A DNA stretch of 64,000 nucleotides, taken from positions 3,284,501 to 3,348,500 of the forward strand of contig NZ_CP086120.1 in NCBI RefSeq assembly GCF_021216675.1, given 5' to 3'. Source of the DNA: Streptomyces gobiensis (GTDB taxonomy: Bacteria > Actinomycetota > Actinomycetes > Streptomycetales > Streptomycetaceae). Shown in pieces: positions 44,825 through 61,779 of the stretch (position 1 is the stretch's first letter; each line of letters begins with the position of its first letter). The notes under the pieces were generated by a model that searched no databases, had not been told where the DNA came from, and saw only the letters and a program-made list of their open reading frames with translations. The position numbers and the translations under genes were made by a program.

Positions 44825-45496
44825 CTATGAGTTCAGATACCTGAGGACTGCGAGCACCCGACGGTGATCTCCGTCACTCTGCGACAGTCCGAGCTTCAGA
44901 AAGATATTGCTGACGTGCTTCTCGACCGCCCCGTCGCTGACCACCAGCTGGCGGGCGATCGCCGAGTTCGTACGGCCCTCCGCCATCAGCCCCAGCACCT
45001 CGCGCTCTCGCGGGGTGAGCCCGGCCAGCACATCCTGTTTCCGGCTGCGGCCCAGCAGCTGCGCGACCACCTCGGGGTCGAGCGCGGTGCCGCCCTGCGC
45101 CACCCGTACCACCGCGTCAACGAACTCACGTACTTCGGCTACCCGGTCCTTCAGCAGATAGCCGACACCCCGGCTGGATCCGGCCAGCAGCTCGGTGGCG
45201 TACTGCTCCTCGACGTACTGCGACAGCACCAGCACCCCAAGGCCGGGGTGCTCGGCGCGCAGCCGTACGGCAGCCCGTACCCCTTCGTCCGTATGCGTCG
45301 GCGGCATCCGGACGTCCGCCACCACCACATCGGGCAGCTGCCCGGCCCCCGCCAGCTGCTCCACCGTCTTGATCAGCGCCTCGCCGTCCCCGACCCCCGC
45401 GACGACATCGTGCCCCCGGTCGGTCAGCAGCCGGGTCAGGCCCTCCCGGAGCAGCACCGAATCCTCGGCGATGACCACCCGCACCCCGTACTCCAC
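44825..45496 (-). CDS. NarL/FixJ-family response regulator
   Basis: About 223 residues from GTG 45496. The receiver domain has acidic pair ED in VVIAEDSVLL, the phospho-acceptor Asp in VVVADVRMPP (near residue 58) and the Lys in GYLLKDRV (near 110). The C-terminal LuxR-type helix-turn-helix is LTPREREVLGLMAEGRTNSA with VSDGAVEKHVSNIFLKLGL. The open frame continues upstream into the kinase gene region but lacks family residues there. It sits 100 bp after two adjacent histidine kinase genes, its likely partners. Confidence 0.93.
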   Translation of the reverse strand: MEYGVRVVIAEDSVLLREGLTRLLTDRGHDVVAGVGDGEALIKTVEQLAGAGQLPDVVVADVRMPPTHTDEGVRAAVRLRAEHPGLGVLVLSQYVEEQYATELLAGSSRGVGYLLKDRVAEVREFVDAVVRVAQGGTALDPEVVAQLLGRSRKQDVLAGLTPREREVLGLMAEGRTNSAIARQLVVSDGAVEKHVSNIFLKLGLSQSDGDHRRVLAVLRYLNS

Positions 45497-45596
45497 GATT
45501 TCCGGCCCCCCGTCCTTAGCTGTATGCCTCCAGCATCCCAGATCGTGGACAGGGAAACAGGACAACCGGACAGTCCGGCCAGCTCGCCCCGCCGGC

Positions 45597-46886
45597 TCAG
45601 TCCCGCCAGGGGAGCTCCGCGGTGATGGTGGTGGGCCCCCCGGCGGGGGACTGGACGAGCAGCAGCCCGTCCACGGACTCCAGCCGCTCGGCCAGCCCCG
45701 CCAGCCCGCTGCCCTCCCCGGCGCTGGCCCCGCCCCGCCCGTTGTCCTCGATCCGCATGAGCAGCCGGTCGCCGCTGCGCCACACCTCAACGGCGGCGGT
45801 GCGGGCGCCGCTGTGTTTGCTGATGTTCTGGAGGAGTTCGGAGACGGTGAAGTAGGCGATGCCTTCGATGGCGGGTGCCGGTCGCTGGGGTAGGTCTGCG
45901 GAGACGTTGACGGGGACGGTGCAGCGGGCGGCGAGGGCGGACAGGGCGGGGCCGAGTCCGCGGTCGGTGAGGATGGCGGGGTGGATGCCGCGGGCGAGGT
46001 CCCGTAGTTCCTGGAGGGCGAGTTTCACTTCGCCGTGGGCTTCGTCGACCATTTTGGCGGCGGCTTCGGGGTCTTCCGTCAGCTTCTCCTTGGCCAGCCC
46101 GAGGCCCATGGCCAGTGCCACCAGCCGGGCCTGTGCTCCGTCGTGCAGATCCCGCTCAATACGCCGCAGATCCGCGTTCGCGGTGTCCACCACCGTGCCC
46201 CGGTCATCCTCCAGCTCCCACATCCGGGCCGCCAGCTGGGACGGGCCGAGCAGCGTACGGACCAGCAACCGGTCCACGGTGGTCAGCCCACGGAACCACC
46301 ACGGGGTGACCAGCACCAGCAGCAGACCGGCCAGCGCCAGGACGGCGATCTCCACCGGGGCGTCGATATACGCGCCGTTGCCGCGCCCATCCCCGTTGAT
46401 CTGGAGCCCCGGCTGGTCCGAGAGGGCCGGGATGACCCAGAACCACAGCGGATACGTCAGCGCCATCCATCCGTAGGCCCACACCGACAGCCCCGCCGCG
46501 AAGGAGAAGCACGCCCACGGGAAGTGCAGCAGCGTATAGAGCAGCTGCCGCCAGGACGCACCGCTCTTCAGCAGCGCCCCCACCCTGGCCATCAGCCCGG
46601 TCTTGCCCTTGGGCGGCCGTACCGGCTCCGGCTCCGCGACAGCCAGCCGCAACAGCGCCCGCGCCCTGGCACGTTCCAGCACGCCGAGGCCCCGCGCCGT
46701 GGCGAGCGTCAGGGCCAGCAGCGGCACCCCGAGAAAGGTGATCAGCAGCCCAGCGCTGGCCGCCGTCATCCCCACCATCAGCGCGAAGACCGCCGCGGCG
46801 ATCGGCAGCCCGGTGAGGAGGTAAAGAAACTCCCGCCAGGTACGGCCCGTGAAGGGCCCGCCCAGTATCCGCATGGGCAACCGCAT
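45597..46886 (-). CDS. Sensor histidine kinase 1 (HisKA_3/HATPase)
   Basis: 429 residues. Four to five hydrophobic helices in the first 215 residues form the sensor region. The dimerisation/phospho-acceptor domain reads RRIERDLHDGAQARLVALAM (His near 246) and the ATP-binding domain holds NISKHSGA (N box) and EDNGRGG/GSGLAGLAER (G boxes). A 451-bp piece (45725-46175) is identical to kinase 2. Start ATG 46886, or the Met four codons later. Confidence 0.93.
   Translation of the reverse strand: MRLPMRILGGPFTGRTWREFLYLLTGLPIAAAVFALMVGMTAASAGLLITFLGVPLLALTLATARGLGVLERARARALLRLAVAEPEPVRPPKGKTGLMARVGALLKSGASWRQLLYTLLHFPWACFSFAAGLSVWAYGWMALTYPLWFWVIPALSDQPGLQINGDGRGNGAYIDAPVEIAVLALAGLLLVLVTPWWFRGLTTVDRLLVRTLLGPSQLAARMWELEDDRGTVVDTANADLRRIERDLHDGAQARLVALAMGLGLAKEKLTEDPEAAAKMVDEAHGEVKLALQELRDLARGIHPAILTDRGLGPALSALAARCTVPVNVSADLPQRPAPAIEGIAYFTVSELLQNISKHSGARTAAVEVWRSGDRLLMRIEDNGRGGASAGEGSGLAGLAERLESVDGLLLVQSPAGGPTTITAELPWRD
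45725..46175 (-). repeat. 451-bp block identical between the two kinase genes (copy A)
   Basis: I compared it base by base with 47036-47486 (offset 1311) and saw no difference, whereas flanking sequence diverges at once on both sides. It covers the phospho-acceptor domain and most of the ATPase domain. Confidence 0.9.
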
Positions 46887-46889
46887 GGG

Positions 46890-48074
46890 TCAGCCCTCCG
46901 TCCGGTCACGGTCCCGCCAGGGCAGCTCGGCCGTGACAGCGGTGGGACCCCCAACGGGGGAGTCAACGAGCAGCAGCCCATCGACTGAGCCCAGCCGGTC
47001 AGCCAGCCCCGCCAGCCCACTTCCACCTTCAGTGGTGGCCCCGCCCCGCCCGTTGTCCTCGATCCGCATGAGCAGCCGGTCGCCGCTGCGCCACACCTCA
47101 ACGGCGGCGGTGCGGGCGCCGCTGTGTTTGCTGATGTTCTGGAGGAGTTCGGAGACGGTGAAGTAGGCGATGCCTTCGATGGCGGGTGCCGGTCGCTGGG
47201 GTAGGTCTGCGGAGACGTTGACGGGGACGGTGCAGCGGGCGGCGAGGGCGGACAGGGCGGGGCCGAGTCCGCGGTCGGTGAGGATGGCGGGGTGGATGCC
47301 GCGGGCGAGGTCCCGTAGTTCCTGGAGGGCGAGTTTCACTTCGCCGTGGGCTTCGTCGACCATTTTGGCGGCGGCTTCGGGGTCTTCCGTCAGCTTCTCC
47401 TTGGCCAGCCCGAGGCCCATGGCCAGTGCCACCAGCCGGGCCTGTGCTCCGTCGTGCAGATCCCGCTCAATACGCCGCAGATCCGCACTGGCCGTATCCG
47501 TGACCGTGACCCGGTCCGACTCCAGCTCAGCGATCCGCCGCTCCAGCTCATCCGAGGGCGACAGCAGCCCACGCACCATCGCCCGGTCCGCGTGTGTCAG
47601 CCCGCGCGCCAGCCAGGGCAGTACCGGCCAGGCGACCAGGAGGGAGACGAGAGCGACGCTGAAGGTCATGACCCCCCAGGGCACCCGGATGAACGAGTAC
47701 AGCGCGTGCCGCCACCCGACCGGGTCCTTCAGACTCGTCCACAGCCAGGGGAAGAACCCGCCATGTGTACGGTGCCGGATCGGCGACGGCTCATCGACCC
47801 GCACCCCCAGCAGCGCCCTGGCGCGAGCCCGCTCCAGCTTGCCGAACTGCCGACAGCCCAGCAGCCCCAGCGCGAGGATGGGCAGGCCGACAACAGTGAC
47901 CGACAGCGGCACTCCGCAGTAGATCCACACGCTGACGTAGGTGAAGCCGATGAGATCCATCGGCATATTGCTGAGCAGGTGTGCGATTTCTTTCCACGTC
48001 TGCGCGCTCAGCGGCGCACGTGGCGCGGGCAGCGCCGCGTCACCGGGTTCGTCGTAGTCGGAGCTCACGGCCAT
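46890..48074 (-). CDS. Sensor histidine kinase 2 (HisKA_3/HATPase)
   Basis: 394 residues, 3 bp upstream of kinase 1 and in the same operon. The N-terminal 190 residues hold a different membrane sensor (MPMDLIGFTYVSVWIYCGVP, TVVGLPILALGLLG), while the catalytic half is identical to kinase 1 through the shared block. Two kinases with unlike sensors but one output domain, next to a single regulator, suggest integration of two signals or heterodimer formation. Confidence 0.92.
   Translation of the reverse strand: MAVSSDYDEPGDAALPAPRAPLSAQTWKEIAHLLSNMPMDLIGFTYVSVWIYCGVPLSVTVVGLPILALGLLGCRQFGKLERARARALLGVRVDEPSPIRHRTHGGFFPWLWTSLKDPVGWRHALYSFIRVPWGVMTFSVALVSLLVAWPVLPWLARGLTHADRAMVRGLLSPSDELERRIAELESDRVTVTDTASADLRRIERDLHDGAQARLVALAMGLGLAKEKLTEDPEAAAKMVDEAHGEVKLALQELRDLARGIHPAILTDRGLGPALSALAARCTVPVNVSADLPQRPAPAIEGIAYFTVSELLQNISKHSGARTAAVEVWRSGDRLLMRIEDNGRGGATTEGGSGLAGLADRLGSVDGLLLVDSPVGGPTAVTAELPWRDRDRTEG
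47036..47486 (-). repeat. 451-bp block identical between the two kinase genes (copy B)
   Basis: Partner of 45725-46175. Within it, codon choice is distinct from both flanks: GAA, AAA and CTC/CTA prevail where the surrounding gene uses GAG, AAG and CTG. Confidence 0.9.
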
Positions 48075-48143: not shown

Positions 48144-48169
48144 CCCCACCCACCCGGAGGTGGGTGGGG
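48144..48169. terminator. Terminator hairpin downstream of the FMN reductase gene
   Basis: An 11-bp stem (CCCCACCCACC / GGTGGGTGGGG) with a 4-base loop; a second small hairpin GGTGGGG/CCCCACC overlaps it. Confidence 0.7.
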
Positions 48170-48176
48170 AATGGGA

Positions 48177-48764
48177 TCACGCTGTGTACGCTCGCTTGGC
48201 CCGAGCTTCCTTCAGCGCAACCCCCCACCAGGTGAGCTGGTCGAGGAGCTCATCCGCCGCCTTGTTCACGGCGTCCGCCTGCAGCGGCTTGCCGTCCTCG
48301 TCGAACTGCTCCCAGGCCATGTGGAAGCTGACCGTGTTGCGCACGGTGACCGCGTGCAGCTCGGCGAAGACCTGGCGGAGCTGTTCGACGGCACGCTGGC
48401 CGCCCGCCATGCCGCCGTATGAGATGAAGGCGACGGGCTTGGCCCGCCACTCTTCGTACACCCAGTCGACGGCCAGCTTCAGGGAGGCGGGATAGCCGTG
48501 GTTGTACTCCGGGGTGATGATGACGAACGCATCGGCCTCGCCGATCCGGTGGGCGAACCCGGGACCGTTCATCGGCGCGGCTGTCTCGTCGAAGTTCAGC
48601 TTGAGCTCTTCGACGATCAGCGGGTCCGCGAGATCTATCAGCTCGGCCTCGATGTCGTCGCGCTGGGCGATCTGCTCGCGGAACCAGCCGGTGATGGTCT
48701 CGGCGAACCTGCCCTTTCGCACGCTGCCGATGATGACTGCGACCTTGAGACGCTGCTGGGACAT
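48177..48764 (-). CDS. NADPH-dependent FMN reductase family protein
   Basis: 195 residues from ATG 48764 (GGAGG upstream). The flavodoxin-like fold shows VAVIIGSVRKGRFAETI (phosphate loop, near residue 10) and the family hallmark ITPEYNHGYPASLKLAVDW (near 85) with SYGGMAGGQRAV. It reduces FMN or quinones with NADPH. It could feed reduced flavin to the cluster's monooxygenase or detoxify quinone products, but it may equally be a core gene at the cluster border. A promoter with a 19-bp spacer, like that of the MFS gene, lies upstream. Confidence 0.9.
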   Translation of the reverse strand: MSQQRLKVAVIIGSVRKGRFAETITGWFREQIAQRDDIEAELIDLADPLIVEELKLNFDETAAPMNGPGFAHRIGEADAFVIITPEYNHGYPASLKLAVDWVYEEWRAKPVAFISYGGMAGGQRAVEQLRQVFAELHAVTVRNTVSFHMAWEQFDEDGKPLQADAVNKAADELLDQLTWWGVALKEARAKRAYTA

Positions 48765-48831: not shown

Positions 48832-48862
48832 ACCCTGCAAATTGAAGTGGGGTTGAGGTCAA
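48832..48862 (-). promoter_or_regulatory. MerR-type promoter of the FMN reductase gene
   Basis: On the minus strand TTGACC (48857-48862), a 19-base spacer and CAGGGT (48832-48837). The spacer contains CTCAA-N6-TTCAA. It overlaps the stop codon of the DsbA-like gene. Confidence 0.5.
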
Positions 48863-49593
48863 GGTTCTTGACGGAGCGGAGCCCCCGGCACGGTGCGCGG
48901 CTCTCCCCGTACGGCGACTCTCTTGAGCTCGAAGAACGCCCCTTCGGTCGCCAGGACGCGGAAGGCATCCCACAGTTCACCGGCCCGCTCCCCGGTCGGG
49001 ATCTCGGTGAAGATGGGGCCGAACTGTCCGGCGTGGCCGTCCACGGAGAGCGTGGGGACACCGATGAGCTGCCGGTCCAGCCCGTCTCCTGCCGGGATCC
49101 GGTCCCGGGACGCGCGCAGATCCCCGTCCCACGCCTCCGAGTCCATCGCGGAGACGAGCGACCCGGGCAGCCCGGTGTCGCGCAGCGCCGCTTCTACGCT
49201 GGGGCCGATCCGTTCCAGCGCGGCGACGGTCACGGCCCGGAAGGTCTCCCAGGACGCCTCACGGACCTTGGTGATATCGCCCGCGGGGCCGTGGAAGCGG
49301 TTTCCCATGGCCGTATAGAGGGATGCGGCGGCTTCGGGGCCGAACCGGGCGCGGGCGGCGGCGGCCACTCGGACAGGGCCCCAGTAGCGGTCCATCACCT
49401 GTCGGCGGTCCGGCGGGAGATCGGCCTCGCTGTTGAGCAGTGCGAGGCTCAGCTCATGCCAGACGATTTCGACCGGCCGGACCTTGGATACCTCGATGAT
49501 CCAGCGTGAGGTGATCCAGGACCAGGGGCACAGCGGGTCGTACCAGAAGTCGATGCGGCGCTGCGGCTGCCGCTCGCCATGGTGCCCGGTCAC
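48859..49593 (-). CDS. DsbA-family thiol oxidoreductase (mycothiol-dependent nitroreductase-like)
   Basis: 244 residues. The thioredoxin-fold opening is IDFWYDPLCPWSW (residues 15-27), followed by ITSRWIIEVSKVRPVEIVWH, the pattern of actinobacterial Rv2466c-type mycothiol-dependent reductases. The active site is CPWS, so only one Cys is left; catalysis would need an external thiol such as mycothiol. ALRDTGLPGS and VGVP-type cis-Pro (LIGVPTLSVDG) are present. It overlaps the hydroxyacyl dehydrogenase stop as GTGA, so it is coupled to a polyketide gene. Role in the pathway unknown: a redox step or quinone detoxification. Confidence 0.82.
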   Translation of the reverse strand: MTGHHGERQPQRRIDFWYDPLCPWSWITSRWIIEVSKVRPVEIVWHELSLALLNSEADLPPDRRQVMDRYWGPVRVAAAARARFGPEAAASLYTAMGNRFHGPAGDITKVREASWETFRAVTVAALERIGPSVEAALRDTGLPGSLVSAMDSEAWDGDLRASRDRIPAGDGLDRQLIGVPTLSVDGHAGQFGPIFTEIPTGERAGELWDAFRVLATEGAFFELKRVAVRGEPRTVPGAPLRQEP

Positions 49594-50579
49594 ACGTCGT
49601 CCGTTCGTGCGGTGTCCGGTCCGGCCGCGTCCGGGGTGATCCGCGCGAGCGCGTTGAGTACGGCGTTCTGCTTGCGGTCCCGCTCAGTGGCGAGCTCGGC
49701 GTAACTCCGGTTCCCGAAGGCGCGCTCCGCCTGGGTGCTGAGGAATTCGATGGTCTCGGGGTCCATCCGCGGGTGGCCCAGCTCCTGCCAGCTGCGTTCC
49801 AGGCCGGTGCCGAGGTGGGTGAGCCAGTGCCGCAGTCCGCCCTCGCCGCCCCCCAAGTGGAAGGCGAGGAAGGGGCCCACCGTGGACCAGCGCAGACCGA
49901 TGGAGTGGGTGACGATGTCATCGAGTTCCTCGATGCCGACGACGCCCTCGCGCACAAGGTGTACACACTCTTGGAGCAGCGCGGACTGGAGCCGGTTGGC
50001 GACGAAGCGCGGTACGGCCTTGCGCAGGACGACCGGGACCTTGCCCACGGACCGGTAGAAGGCCGCCGCCTCTTCCAGGGCCCCCGGCGCGGTAGCGGCG
50101 CCGCCGACCACTTCCACCAGCGGTACCACATGCGGCGGGTTGAACGGATGTCCGACGATCAGTCGGCTCCGGTCGGCCATCAGCGCGCCCATGTCGTCGG
50201 GGAGGAGCGTGGACGTCGAGGAGAGCAGCAGCGCCTCCGGGGGCGCTGCCTCGCCGACGAGCTTGAACAGCTCCTGCTTGAGCGGCAGATCCTCGGGCGA
50301 GTTCTCCTGTACGACGTCGACGCCCTCGACGGCGTGGGCCACGTCGGGTTCGAACTCCAACCGGGCGGCCAGCTCCTCGGGGTCCCGGGCGCCGCCGGGC
50401 AGGGTGGGCGCGAATACTCTGAGGCCGTCCCTGACGATTCGCTCGGCTCCGGTCCGGCGGCTGTTGACCCGTACGGTGAGTCCGTGCGACAGGAACAGGG
50501 TGATCCAGCCGAGTCCGATGGTGCCAGCACCTATGACTGCCACAACCGGCGTCCGTGCTACGGAATTAGTCATCGACAC
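49590..50579 (-). CDS. 3-hydroxyacyl-CoA dehydrogenase family ketoreductase (ActVI-ORF1-like)
   Basis: 329 residues. NAD(P)-binding motif VAVIGAGTIGLGWITLFLSH lies at residues 12-31; SSTSTLLPDDMGA and VGHPFNPPHVVPLVEVVGG (near 142) are family hallmarks, with the catalytic His in VGHPFNPP. In actinorhodin-type pathways a member of this family (ActVI-ORF1) reduces the bicyclic intermediate and sets pyran-ring stereochemistry. That role is inferred here from the surrounding type II PKS and from the SARP-type repeats upstream. GTG 50579 or ATG 50573 are both possible starts. Fatty-acid or sugar-acid dehydrogenase roles are less likely in this context. Confidence 0.83.
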   Translation of the reverse strand: MSMTNSVARTPVVAVIGAGTIGLGWITLFLSHGLTVRVNSRRTGAERIVRDGLRVFAPTLPGGARDPEELAARLEFEPDVAHAVEGVDVVQENSPEDLPLKQELFKLVGEAAPPEALLLSSTSTLLPDDMGALMADRSRLIVGHPFNPPHVVPLVEVVGGAATAPGALEEAAAFYRSVGKVPVVLRKAVPRFVANRLQSALLQECVHLVREGVVGIEELDDIVTHSIGLRWSTVGPFLAFHLGGGEGGLRHWLTHLGTGLERSWQELGHPRMDPETIEFLSTQAERAFGNRSYAELATERDRKQNAVLNALARITPDAAGPDTARTDDV

Positions 50580-50598
50580 CCATTCTCATACACCTCAC

Positions 50599-50628
50599 GC
50601 GCGAACTTCAGCTGCGCGAACTTCAGCA
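50599..50628. repeat. 15-bp tandem duplication in the leader of the dehydrogenase operon
   Basis: GCGCGAACTTCAGCT at 50599-50613 is followed at once by GCGCGAACTTCAGCA at 50614-50628. It lies between the predicted transcription start and the coding region. Confidence 0.8.
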
Positions 50629-50637
50629 TGAAATAAA

Positions 50638-50703
50638 AAGCTACAGGAAAGCACTCGAAGGCCGGTCGAGGGGCGGTCGAGGGGGCGGTCGAAGGGCGGT
50701 TGA
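50638..50703 (-). promoter_or_regulatory. SARP-binding heptamer array and -10 box of the dehydrogenase operon
   Basis: On the minus strand five heptamers TCAACCG, TCGACCG, TCGACCG, TCGACCG and TCGAGTG are spaced 11, 12, 11 and 11 bp. The last one (50652-50658) ends 8 bp before TAGCTT (50638-50643), a -10 box. This spacing is the known rule for SARP-activated promoters. The remaining 50704-51018 region is AT-richer and holds no gene I can support. Confidence 0.82.
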
Positions 50704-51042: not shown

Positions 51043-51819
51043 ATGCGATTCAATCTCATCGGCCCATTTGAGATAATCACCGACGAAGGCAGAGCCTACA
51101 CGCCTCGCACTCCGAAGGTGTGTCAATTACTGGCACTTCTTCTCACTCGACCCAATGAAATCGTGATGATCGATTCGCTTATTCGCGAATTGTGGGGATG
51201 TAATCCGCCGCGCAGTGCTCTGACCACGCTGCAGACGTATGTGTACCACTCCCGGAAGATGTTCGCGAACGAGGGTCTGACCAGCCCTGAACGGGAGTTG
51301 CTGCTCACCCGTCCGCCCGGATATCTCATCCGCGTCGACGCGGAGGAACTGGATACCCAGATCTTCGAGCGGCTTATCCGGCAGGGACGCGACCATCTTG
51401 CCAACGGCGAGCCGGAGCTGGCGGCCAAGAGGCTCCGGGATGCCCTCGCGCTGTGGCGGGGACCGGCCCTCGCCAACATCTCGGCGGGCGAGATACTCAT
51501 GGCTCGTATTTCCTATCTGGAGGAGCTGCGGATCCGCGCGGTGGAACTGCGGATCGAGGCCGACAAGCAACTGGGCAGACATCGGGAGCTGATCCCGGAG
51601 CTGCGATCGCTGGTCAAGGAGTACCCGTTCAACGAGTGGTTCCATGGCCAGCTGATCGACATGCTGAACACCGCGGGACGCCGGGCGGAGGCGCTTCAGG
51701 CGTACCAGAACCTGCGGAAGACGCTGCACGACGAGCTGGGTCTTGAACCCTCTACGGCGCTGCAACAGCTCCAGTACGAGGTCCTCAGCCCGCCGTTCCC
51801 CGAGCCGGTGAGCCAATAG
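51043..51819 (+). CDS. SARP-family pathway activator (ActII-ORF4-like)
   Basis: 258 residues (an in-frame ATG at 51019 would add eight). An OmpR-like winged-helix DNA-binding domain (FNLIGPFEIITDEGRAYTPR to about residue 95, with LLLTRPPGYLI) is joined to a bacterial transcriptional activation domain (TPR-like, FERLIRQGRDHL to the end, with LVKEYPFNEWFHGQLIDML and AYQNLRKTLHDELGLEPS). Length and layout fit the small SARPs that switch on aromatic polyketide clusters. Codon 29 is TTA (51127-51129), so translation should depend on the bldA tRNA. The 5' third is poorer in GC than its neighbours. Likely targets are the heptamer arrays described here. Confidence 0.93.
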   Translation: MRFNLIGPFEIITDEGRAYTPRTPKVCQLLALLLTRPNEIVMIDSLIRELWGCNPPRSALTTLQTYVYHSRKMFANEGLTSPERELLLTRPPGYLIRVDAEELDTQIFERLIRQGRDHLANGEPELAAKRLRDALALWRGPALANISAGEILMARISYLEELRIRAVELRIEADKQLGRHRELIPELRSLVKEYPFNEWFHGQLIDMLNTAGRRAEALQAYQNLRKTLHDELGLEPSTALQQLQYEVLSPPFPEPVSQ

Positions 51820-53582: not shown

Positions 53583-54716
53583 TCAAGGACCGGAGTTCGC
53601 CAGAGACTCCAGTGACGGGACGAGTTCGGCCGGGCCGGGCATGGCGTTCATGTCCGACCGCAGCCGGTCGGCGGCATCCCGGTATGAGGCGTTGCCGAGG
53701 ACCTCCTCGACGGCCGCCACGATGGTGTCCGCGGTGTCTTCTTCGGGCGTGATCAGCTTCGCCGAGCCGAGTTCGGCGAGCCTGTGGGTGTAGTCCAGGC
53801 CGAGCATGTGCGGAATCAGGATCTGCGGCACGCCGTGGGCCATCCCGGCGAGGGTGGTGCTTCCACCGCCGTGATGGACCATCGCGTTGATGGTCGGCAT
53901 GGCGGTATCGAGCGGAATCCAGTCGGCCCGCGCGTGCGCCGGCAGCGGCCTCAGCTTTTCAGCGACCGCCTCGGGCGCGGCGATCAGCAGCTCGGCGTCG
54001 AGCGAGGAGGTGGCCCGGACCAGCCCGTCGAGGATGTCGAAGTCATGGTCCGGGGTGACCCTGCTGCCCGCGCTGACCAGCACACGCGGCCGGTCGTGCG
54101 CCGAGTGCAGCCACGGCTCTACGGGCCGCTGTGAGGTGTACGGGATATGCCGCATCGGCAGCGCGGGCGGTACTACGGCGGGGCGGGCGGCCGACGGGCA
54201 CACGCTGATGCTCAGTGCGGGCCGGGGCATCTCGTAGAGCCCGAACCGCTCCATCTCCAGACCCAGTTGGGCCGCTGCGGCCAGATTGGTGACGGCGGGC
54301 TCGGCCAGATCGGTAGCGAACCGTACGAAGGGGACCCCCGCGTGGTGGGCGACCAGGGGTGCCGCGTACGCCAGCACCACGCCGACCACCAGATCGGGCC
54401 GCCAGTCATCGGCCAGCCGCAGCAGTGGGTCCAGACAGTCCGCCGCGTATCCGCCGAACATCCGGCCGATGGCCAGATAGGAGTCGAGGCCCTCCTCCGA
54501 CACCGGTGCGGTGTTGCCCAGGCCGGGGATCCGGAAATCGGCGACGGACCGGTCGGTCACCACGACGGGCGGCAGACCGGCCCCGGCGATGTCGCCCGCG
54601 AGTGCCTCGGGGCCGGTCATGAAGACCTCGTGACCGGCGTTACGGGTGGCCTGAGCGAGCGGGATCAGCGGGAACAGTGTCCCCGCCCCGTTTCCCCCGA
54701 CGAAAAGAATCCTCAT
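53583..54716 (-). CDS. GT-B fold glycosyltransferase (family 1, antibiotic type)
   Basis: 377 residues. The N-terminus MRILFVGGNGAGTLFPLIPL is the acceptor-domain start of macrolide/aromatic-polyketide glycosyltransferases. The C-terminal nucleotide-sugar motif is MVHHGGGSTTLAGMAHGVPQ with ILIPHMLGLDYTHRLAELGSA. It should attach the deoxysugar made by the genes at the right edge to the aglycone; O- or C-linkage cannot be told, though relatives such as UrdGT2 are C-glycosyltransferases. ATG 54716 lies 6 bases after a -10-like box, so the transcript is probably leaderless. Confidence 0.9.
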   Translation of the reverse strand: MRILFVGGNGAGTLFPLIPLAQATRNAGHEVFMTGPEALAGDIAGAGLPPVVVTDRSVADFRIPGLGNTAPVSEEGLDSYLAIGRMFGGYAADCLDPLLRLADDWRPDLVVGVVLAYAAPLVAHHAGVPFVRFATDLAEPAVTNLAAAAQLGLEMERFGLYEMPRPALSISVCPSAARPAVVPPALPMRHIPYTSQRPVEPWLHSAHDRPRVLVSAGSRVTPDHDFDILDGLVRATSSLDAELLIAAPEAVAEKLRPLPAHARADWIPLDTAMPTINAMVHHGGGSTTLAGMAHGVPQILIPHMLGLDYTHRLAELGSAKLITPEEDTADTIVAAVEEVLGNASYRDAADRLRSDMNAMPGPAELVPSLESLANSGP

Positions 54717-54722
54717 GTCCAC

Positions 54723-54765
54723 ATCGTCAGCAGTGCGGATCGAGTGCGGCTCGACGTTTCCTCGA
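54723..54765 (-). promoter_or_regulatory. SARP-binding heptamer array and leaderless promoter of the glycosyltransferase gene
   Basis: On the minus strand TCGAGGA, TCGAGCC and TCGATCC occur at exact 11-bp periods (54759-54765, 54748-54754, 54737-54743). Eight bases later comes GACGAT (54723-54728) as -10 box, and six bases after that the ATG. Confidence 0.82.
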
Positions 54766-54798
54766 CGCGGACGCCTCAGGGCCTGTCCGGGCGGATCT

Positions 54799-54860
54799 TT
54801 CCCCAACCCCGCCCCTTCCCGAAAACTGGGGGCTTCGCCCCCAGGCCCCCGGGGCGGAGG
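54799..54860. repeat. Dispersed GC-rich palindromic repeat, partial copy 5
   Basis: CCCCAACCCCGCCCCTTCCC and the hairpin CTGGGGGCTTCGCCCCCAG, the left half of the repeat family, lying inside the MITE-like element. Confidence 0.6.
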
Positions 54861-61694: not shown

Positions 61695-61750
61695 TCTTCC
61701 TCCATCGCATTGCGTCGCGCCCGTCTGCTGCCGACCTTCGTCCACGCTTC

Positions 61751-61779
61751 TCGAGCGCCGGTCGAACTGGCCTGGAACG
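61751..61779. promoter_or_regulatory. SARP-type heptamer repeats between ketoreductase and SnoaL genes
   Basis: On the plus strand TCGAGCG (61751), TCGAACT (61762) and the weaker TGGAACG (61773) recur at 11 bp. Read on the minus strand TCGACCG and TCGAGAA at 11 bp are followed 8 bases later by GAAGGT, a possible -10 for the ketoreductase operon. Confidence 0.65.

Follow-up and report, generated by a model that had tools for sequence, protein, structure and literature searches.

Positions 50638-50703 of a 64,000-nucleotide stretch of the Streptomyces gobiensis genome (the window; C1:3284501-3348500 of a single contig of 5,691,859 bases) most probably form the SARP-dependent promoter of a three-gene operon, which would be bound by a small SARP encoded divergently from that operon, with sister operators switching on the rest of a type II polyketide cluster at the same time. 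The region is very probably a classical SARP operator in a natural longer form. This reading follows from a geometry that obeys the published rule, from the placing of all four triple arrays of the genome within the cluster, and from the adjacent SARP gene. In the rule as given in the available parts of two sources, the repeats lie 11 or 22 bp apart and the last is 8 bp from the -10 element (PMC10936776; PMC4393881). The elements of the region, read on the minus strand, are as follows.

50697-50703, minus strand: heptamer 1, the farthest from the promoter, TCAACCG, one mismatch in the TCGA core
50686-50692, minus strand: heptamer 2, TCGACCG, at a period of 12 to heptamer 3
50674-50680, minus strand: heptamer 3, TCGACCG
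50663-50669, minus strand: heptamer 4, TCGACCG
50652-50658, minus strand: heptamer 5, TCGAGTG, promoter-proximal
50651-50644, minus strand: 8-nt gap between heptamer 5 and TAGCTT, CTTTCCTG
50638-50643, minus strand: predicted -10 element TAGCTT, 8 nt beyond heptamer 5, a gap that is identical in 11 related loci

The heptamers start at 50703, 50692, 50680, 50669 and 50658, giving periods of 11, 12, 11 and 11, so the geometry claimed by the first-pass annotation, including TAGCTT 8 nt after the last heptamer, is exact. Its description of the units as TCGACCG-type applies in full to units 2-4, while the farthest reads TCAACCG and the nearest TCGAGTG; the five cores thus comprise four perfect TCGA and one TCAA. 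The three proximal heptamers, at periods of 11 and 11, fit the 11/22-bp rule. Beyond them the periods are 12 and 11, of which one departs from the rule, and because of the 12-bp period the two farthest heptamers are one base out of phase with the others. If position +1 is 50629, the proximal heptamers start near -29 and -40 and, by geometry alone, overlap the -35 region.

The array is far above chance. TCGACCG-N4-TCGACCG-N4-TCGA with at most two mismatches is found once in the window, against a mean of 0.02 in shuffled sequences. The first-pass annotation had proposed a genome-wide motif scan, and this places the pattern TCGA-N7-TCGA-N7-TCGA at four sites in the 5.69-Mb genome, all of them in the 24 kb of C1:3335155-3359240, within the type II polyketide cluster; the same pattern read backwards, as a control, is found at one place genome-wide. 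A first-order Markov model of the window predicts about 0.6 triples per 5.69 Mb; this is a rough estimate, derived from a single event in 10 Mb, and no quadruple array arose in that simulation. A heptamer pair followed, across the 8-nt gap, by the two most conserved -10 positions (TCGA-N7-TCGA-N12-ANNNT) occurs at eight places genome-wide, six of them inside the cluster, and the backwards control gives 0. As the Markov model leads one to expect about 4.6 matches to a pair plus NANNNT in the genome, an isolated pair site carries little weight and the two matches outside the cluster are taken as background. The signal is the clustering of these sites and not their number. A scan of 90.5 kb allowing at most two mismatches over three units returns the same six operator faces together with a weak additional match at 69273. 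These faces belong to five loci, since one site, C1:3359198-3359257, has a NANNNT hexamer on both sides.

The TCGA core is palindromic, and the direction of the array is therefore taken from the -10 element and from homology. The four triple arrays were picked without regard to a -10 element. On the minus strand NANNNT lies exactly 8 nt downstream in all four (TAGCTT, GACGAT, GACCAT and GAGGAT), compared with one of the four on the plus strand; by chance it is expected at about 0.021 per position and side in the 90.5 kb. Together with the arrays of related loci, which face the dehydrogenase (see below), this bears out the minus-strand direction towards the dehydrogenase operon. Alternatively, the array might drive, or additionally drive, plus-strand transcription to the SARP gene as an autoregulatory site. 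The palindrome would permit this, the units as read on the plus strand are similar to the OtcR repeat CGGTCGAAG (PMC4393881, in the part available), and the sister site at C1:3359198-3359257 does carry NANNNT at 8 nt on both sides. We nevertheless regard plus-strand control as highly unlikely, since the hexamers at the corresponding positions of the five-heptamer array, TGGCGA (after TTGAATG) and ATGCGT (after the last TCGA), do not fit NANNNT, the SARP start is about 340 bp from the array, and the arrays of the relatives point at the dehydrogenase. As the main direction of the array, the plus strand was rejected on these hexamers.

The predicted target on the minus strand consists of three genes.

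49590-50579, minus strand: ketoreductase of the 3-hydroxyacyl-CoA dehydrogenase family, ActVI-ORF1/Med-ORF12-like, start GTG 50579 or ATG 50573
48859-49593, minus strand: DsbA-like gene with Rv2466c-like and DSBA domains, its start overlapping the dehydrogenase stop as GTGA
48177-48764, minus strand: NADPH-dependent FMN reductase, third gene of the operon, with GGAGG upstream
48144-48169, minus strand: GC-rich stem-loop after the FMN reductase stop, without a T run, read by eye and not folded

The stem-loop is likely to mark the end of the operon. The first-pass annotation had the array driving a dehydrogenase/DsbA operon; the sequence supports that link, but the operon as described was incomplete, its third gene being the FMN reductase. 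A possible FrnE/frenolicin link of the DsbA-like gene is not relied on here. The dehydrogenase contains 3HCDH_N (145.9 bits) and 3HCDH (40.9 bits) domains, and its His144 and Glu156, 12 residues apart, are invariant in three aligned proteins, of which ActVI-ORF1 is not one. The spacing is that of the His129/Glu141 dyad described for ActVI-ORF1, the C-3 ketoreductase of actinorhodin, which acts on the ketone of the bicyclic intermediate, and Med-ORF12 is given as its medermycin counterpart (PMC4498746, in part). By its sequence, the dehydrogenase resembles these ketoreductases of benzoisochromanequinone pathways. The same earlier reading tied an 'outlying' dehydrogenase to the polyketide cluster; the tie is supported, whereas the gene is not an outlier, because it fits the core of an ActVI-ORF1/Med-ORF12-class pathway. 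Adjoining the operon, at 44825-48074 on the minus strand, are two sensor histidine kinases side by side, which carry a Sensor domain, and a response regulator of the LuxR type.

A short open reading frame may lie between the promoter and the dehydrogenase.

50570-50629, minus strand: possible leaderless ORF of 19 codons; its ATG lies 8 nt downstream of the -10 element and its TGA overlaps the dehydrogenase ATG as ATGA

From ATG 50629 it encodes MLKFAQLKFAREVYENGCR, and it contains a 15-bp tandem repeat (50599-50627). As a rough estimate, such a coincidence of start and stop has a chance of a few per cent. The ATGA overlap might possibly couple its translation to that of the ketoreductase; GAGG lies 12 nt upstream of GTG 50579, the alternative start of the dehydrogenase. 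S. tanashiensis has a leader of similar length but with an ordinary ribosome site.

On the other side of the array is the candidate activator.

51043-51819, plus strand: SARP activator gene (Trans_reg_C and BTAD), divergent from the operon; the ORF was called from 51019 and the start at 51043 was set by comparison with relatives

The protein of 266 aa consists of Trans_reg_C (34.7 bits) and BTAD (163.4 bits) with no further domain, as in a small SARP. A BTAD search of the genome gave five matches, and as the other four are in open frames of 1007 to 1142 codons this is the only small SARP found in the genome. It shares 60-64% identity with SARPs encoded on three Streptomyces plasmids, including the auricin plasmid pSA3239.

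The array is also found before related dehydrogenases. A scan of bacterial genomes, from which the best 80 of 115 loci were taken, together with genus and family searches, gave 131 loci; 90 were matched by tblastn and 77 were distinct once 13 duplicates with identical 600 bases had been removed, a step that reduced array-positive loci from 17 to 11. Of these 77, 44 are at least 60% identical in the dehydrogenase and 33 are 45-60% identical. Where the gene heads its operon (no same-strand ORF of more than 150 codons ending close to its start), a three-heptamer array with the same 8-nt gap precedes it in 11 of the 15 relatives with at least 60% identity. The -10 hexamers in these 11 are CAGCCT, CAGTCT, CAGGCT or CAGCAT, and the period is 11 bp. 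The strict array is absent from the other four (L037, L041, L047 and L054; L041 has a run of N upstream), from all 29 relatives of at least 60% identity in which the gene is sited behind another same-strand gene, and from all 33 relatives at 45-60% identity. The 11 positive loci are not independent, because ten of them form one closely similar family. In these ten, which include S. violaceoruber NRRL S-981 (L050), there are three units and the dehydrogenase ATG itself follows 7 nt after the -10 element. The eleventh, S. tanashiensis JCM 4086 (L022), has the layout seen in S. gobiensis, with the array between the dehydrogenase and a divergent, 58% identical SARP (L022:5826-5077, located by tblastn), and with three units in place of five. 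The frame at L022:9589-10392 was considered as the SARP and ruled out, having no Pfam match.

The best dehydrogenase matches among the 80 loci taken from 115 are a 72% identical protein of Streptosporangium, encoded behind another ORF, and the 70% identical one of S. tanashiensis. A close relative sharing the same array was not found among 295 genus genomes, 394 family genomes or 150 relatives (E cut 1e-125), counts that include the own genome; outside it the best dehydrogenases in these sets are 66, 66 and 65% identical. A shared intergenic array was also looked for in pSA3239 and Streptomyces sp. W1SF4 and discarded, the SARP and dehydrogenase there lying tail to tail. In both, other genes on the same strand precede the dehydrogenase gene, and an array immediately before it would not be expected.

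The remaining genes of the cluster include KS, ACP, cyclase, ketoreductase, MFS transporter, glycosyltransferase and deoxysugar genes, with a second KS-like gene taken for the chain-length factor. Besides the array before the dehydrogenase, operator loci are predicted before two glycosyltransferases, the ketoreductase/PKS core and a methyltransferase/sugar gene pair, making five in total.

54723-54765, minus strand: sister operator of three heptamers, 8 nt and GACGAT; a glycosyltransferase ATG follows 6 nt on and an MFS transporter is next
61734-61776, minus strand: sister operator of two perfect heptamers and one with a mismatch, 8 nt and GAAGGT, heading the ketoreductase/PKS core run
73.8 kb in extended window numbering: sister operator heading the second glycosyltransferase
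C1:3359198-3359257 (74,698-74,757 in extended window numbering, L019): sister operator of three heptamers, flanked on each side by NANNNT at 8 nt, in the interval separating a methyltransferase gene from a divergent nucleotidyltransferase gene

The last of these is possibly a bidirectional SARP operator. At both glycosyltransferases the ATG lies 6-7 nt after the -10 element, so leaderless transcripts are possible. The two glycosyltransferases (53583-54806 and C1:3357106-3358251) have matches to the 'activator-dependent' glycosyltransferase subfamily that fall short of its cut-off. The right-hand part of the cluster also contains a second DsbA-like gene (L018:16252-16896) and an IS4/5-type transposase fragment (L018:17407-17799). 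The SARP gene about 340 bp from the array, the sister operators, the 8-nt NANNNT and the three-heptamer arrays of 11 of the 15 relatives all support the first-pass reading of the region as a SARP operator.

Long TCGA arrays are rare among Streptomyces but have parallels. Of 392 Streptomyces genomes, 58 contain arrays of at least four TCGA at 11/12 bp (backwards control 4, counted from the table). Of thirty such loci retrieved, the S. gobiensis array and one further array have NANNNT at 8 nt from an end, the hexamer being absent at this distance from either end in the remaining 28. The frequency of arrays that lack this hexamer, and the GGGG and GGGGG runs on the plus strand of the present one, speak for a chance or structural GC repeat, for example a G-rich DNA structure, with no activator role. 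This is extremely improbable, as the sister arrays retain the TCGA period and the 8-nt gap in the absence of such G runs and all four triples of the genome fall within 24 kb. At least four units with the 8-nt gap to a -10 element are present in six of the 392 genomes, S. gobiensis included (control 0). In three of the five others (G161, G624 and G162) a SARP homologue is encoded nearby, while none was seen in the 19 kb examined around the G663 array or the 3 kb examined around the G203 array. The arrays at G161:C12 (L193), G624:C9 (L194) and G162:C542:5431 (L196) resemble that of S. gobiensis in having four TCGA units, NANNNT at 8 nt and a SARP nearby, but belong to other clusters, with SARPs of 36-41% identity; between G161 and G624 the matched stretch shows a single base difference. 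Read by eye, the array of G162 includes a fifth unit, TCGGGCG, which has one mismatch. The observation that five repeats exceed the usual two or three thus holds, and such a length is uncommon though it has precedents. Among the open papers in the literature matches listed, no title refers to a SARP operator of four or five repeats, which is not to claim that none is in print.

The adjacent 11-bp units of the array agree at 9, 11, 9 and 6 of 11 positions and Tandem Repeats Finder (TRF) reports an 11-bp tandem array of 4.5 copies with 85% matches. This high identity makes tandem duplication the likely origin of the units. Such likeness of neighbouring units is also seen elsewhere; adjacent units of the other operators examined share 5 to 7 of 11 positions, and one pair, in the 54.7-kb operator, shares 10, which also weakens any case for slippage built on likeness alone. 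Given that the region is a SARP operator, we lean slightly towards only the two or three proximal heptamers being functional and the farthest having little or no effect, as products of slippage in a GC-rich 11-bp unit. The unit identities and the TRF tandem array favour this, as do the three heptamers of related dehydrogenase promoters, the two or three repeats of the operators named in a review (PMC10972967, in part) and the AfsR complex, described as a dimer on two repeats (PMC10936776, in part). On the other hand, units 2-4 retain an intact TCGACCG and the G162 array also reads as five.

An operator with more than three heptamers has been built and tested at the pimM promoter, the operator of PimR, which like the S. 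gobiensis array has 11-bp heptamer units. According to the available part of that study, a fourth heptamer gave only 140% transcription and 114% product, loss of one triplet heptamer abolished production, and the authors consider three heptamers the optimum, with monomers binding cooperatively; a second triplet replacing the doublet, however, gave 470% transcription, indicating that more sites can matter (PMC5930380). The slight gain from a fourth heptamer suggests that extra units may matter little, and by analogy it speaks against the fourth and fifth units of S. gobiensis having a large effect. The transfer is uncertain, as PimR is a SARP-LAL regulator whose operator is upstream of the -35 element, with another heptamer sequence and an artificial fourth unit. 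The same result lowers the odds of a graded or switch-like operator, in which protomers would cover -74 to -23, the upstream ones contacting polymerase alpha or loading the proximal pair, so that the operon would fire at a lower SARP level than its sisters, with the leaderless 19-codon ORF coupled to the ketoreductase through ATGA. We consider this graded or switch-like reading unlikely.

For a SARP-dependent promoter, we infer that the small SARP binds the 11-bp direct repeats and that the protomers on the promoter-proximal heptamers would compensate for a poor -35 element by holding sigma region 4 and RNA polymerase. Transcription would then start from TAGCTT at about 50629-50634. The same SARP at the sister operators (PKS core, two glycosyltransferases, sugar/methyltransferase genes) would turn the whole cluster on together. 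The upstream heptamers, with starts near -51, -63 and -74, probably arose by tandem duplication; the one near -51 would be the counterpart of the third heptamer in ordinary operators, and the two beyond it may contribute a little occupancy or have almost no effect.

The predicted SARP regulon comprises five loci with six promoter faces in a cluster of benzoisochromanequinone-like type, and its clarity makes the SARP a rational choice for efforts to activate the cluster. The natural contrast of five and three repeats, combined with a small SARP and the usual -10 distance, could be used to probe extra heptamers beyond the AfsR dimer, and the finding gains weight only if the extra units alter the response. 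The operator type is known; its natural long form is unusual.

A close structural comparison is the AfsR-afsS initiation complex (PDB 8hvr, 8k60 and 8jke), in which, as described in the part of the source available, the AfsR box is at -40 to -19 and the repeats and sigma region 4 are contacted by a dimer arranged side by side (PMC10936776). The S. gobiensis SARP similarly has an OmpR-type DBD and a BTA domain with 11-bp repeats over the -35 region, and its proximal heptamers at -29 and -40, if +1 is 50629, would be near the position of the AfsR box. AfsR differs in being a large SARP that acts on two repeats of another sequence. Of its base-contacting residues, which include T88, R87 and R92 (PMC10936776), T88 is kept in the alignment while R87 is replaced by Gln and R92 by His, so the base contacts of the cluster SARP would differ from those of AfsR. 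Another close parallel is the site of ActII-ORF4 at actVI-ORF1 in the actinorhodin cluster of S. coelicolor, where, according to the available part of a review and with the act sequence itself not compared, SARP-type heptamers also precede a ketoreductase of the 3HAD family, numbering three as against five in S. gobiensis (PMC10972967).
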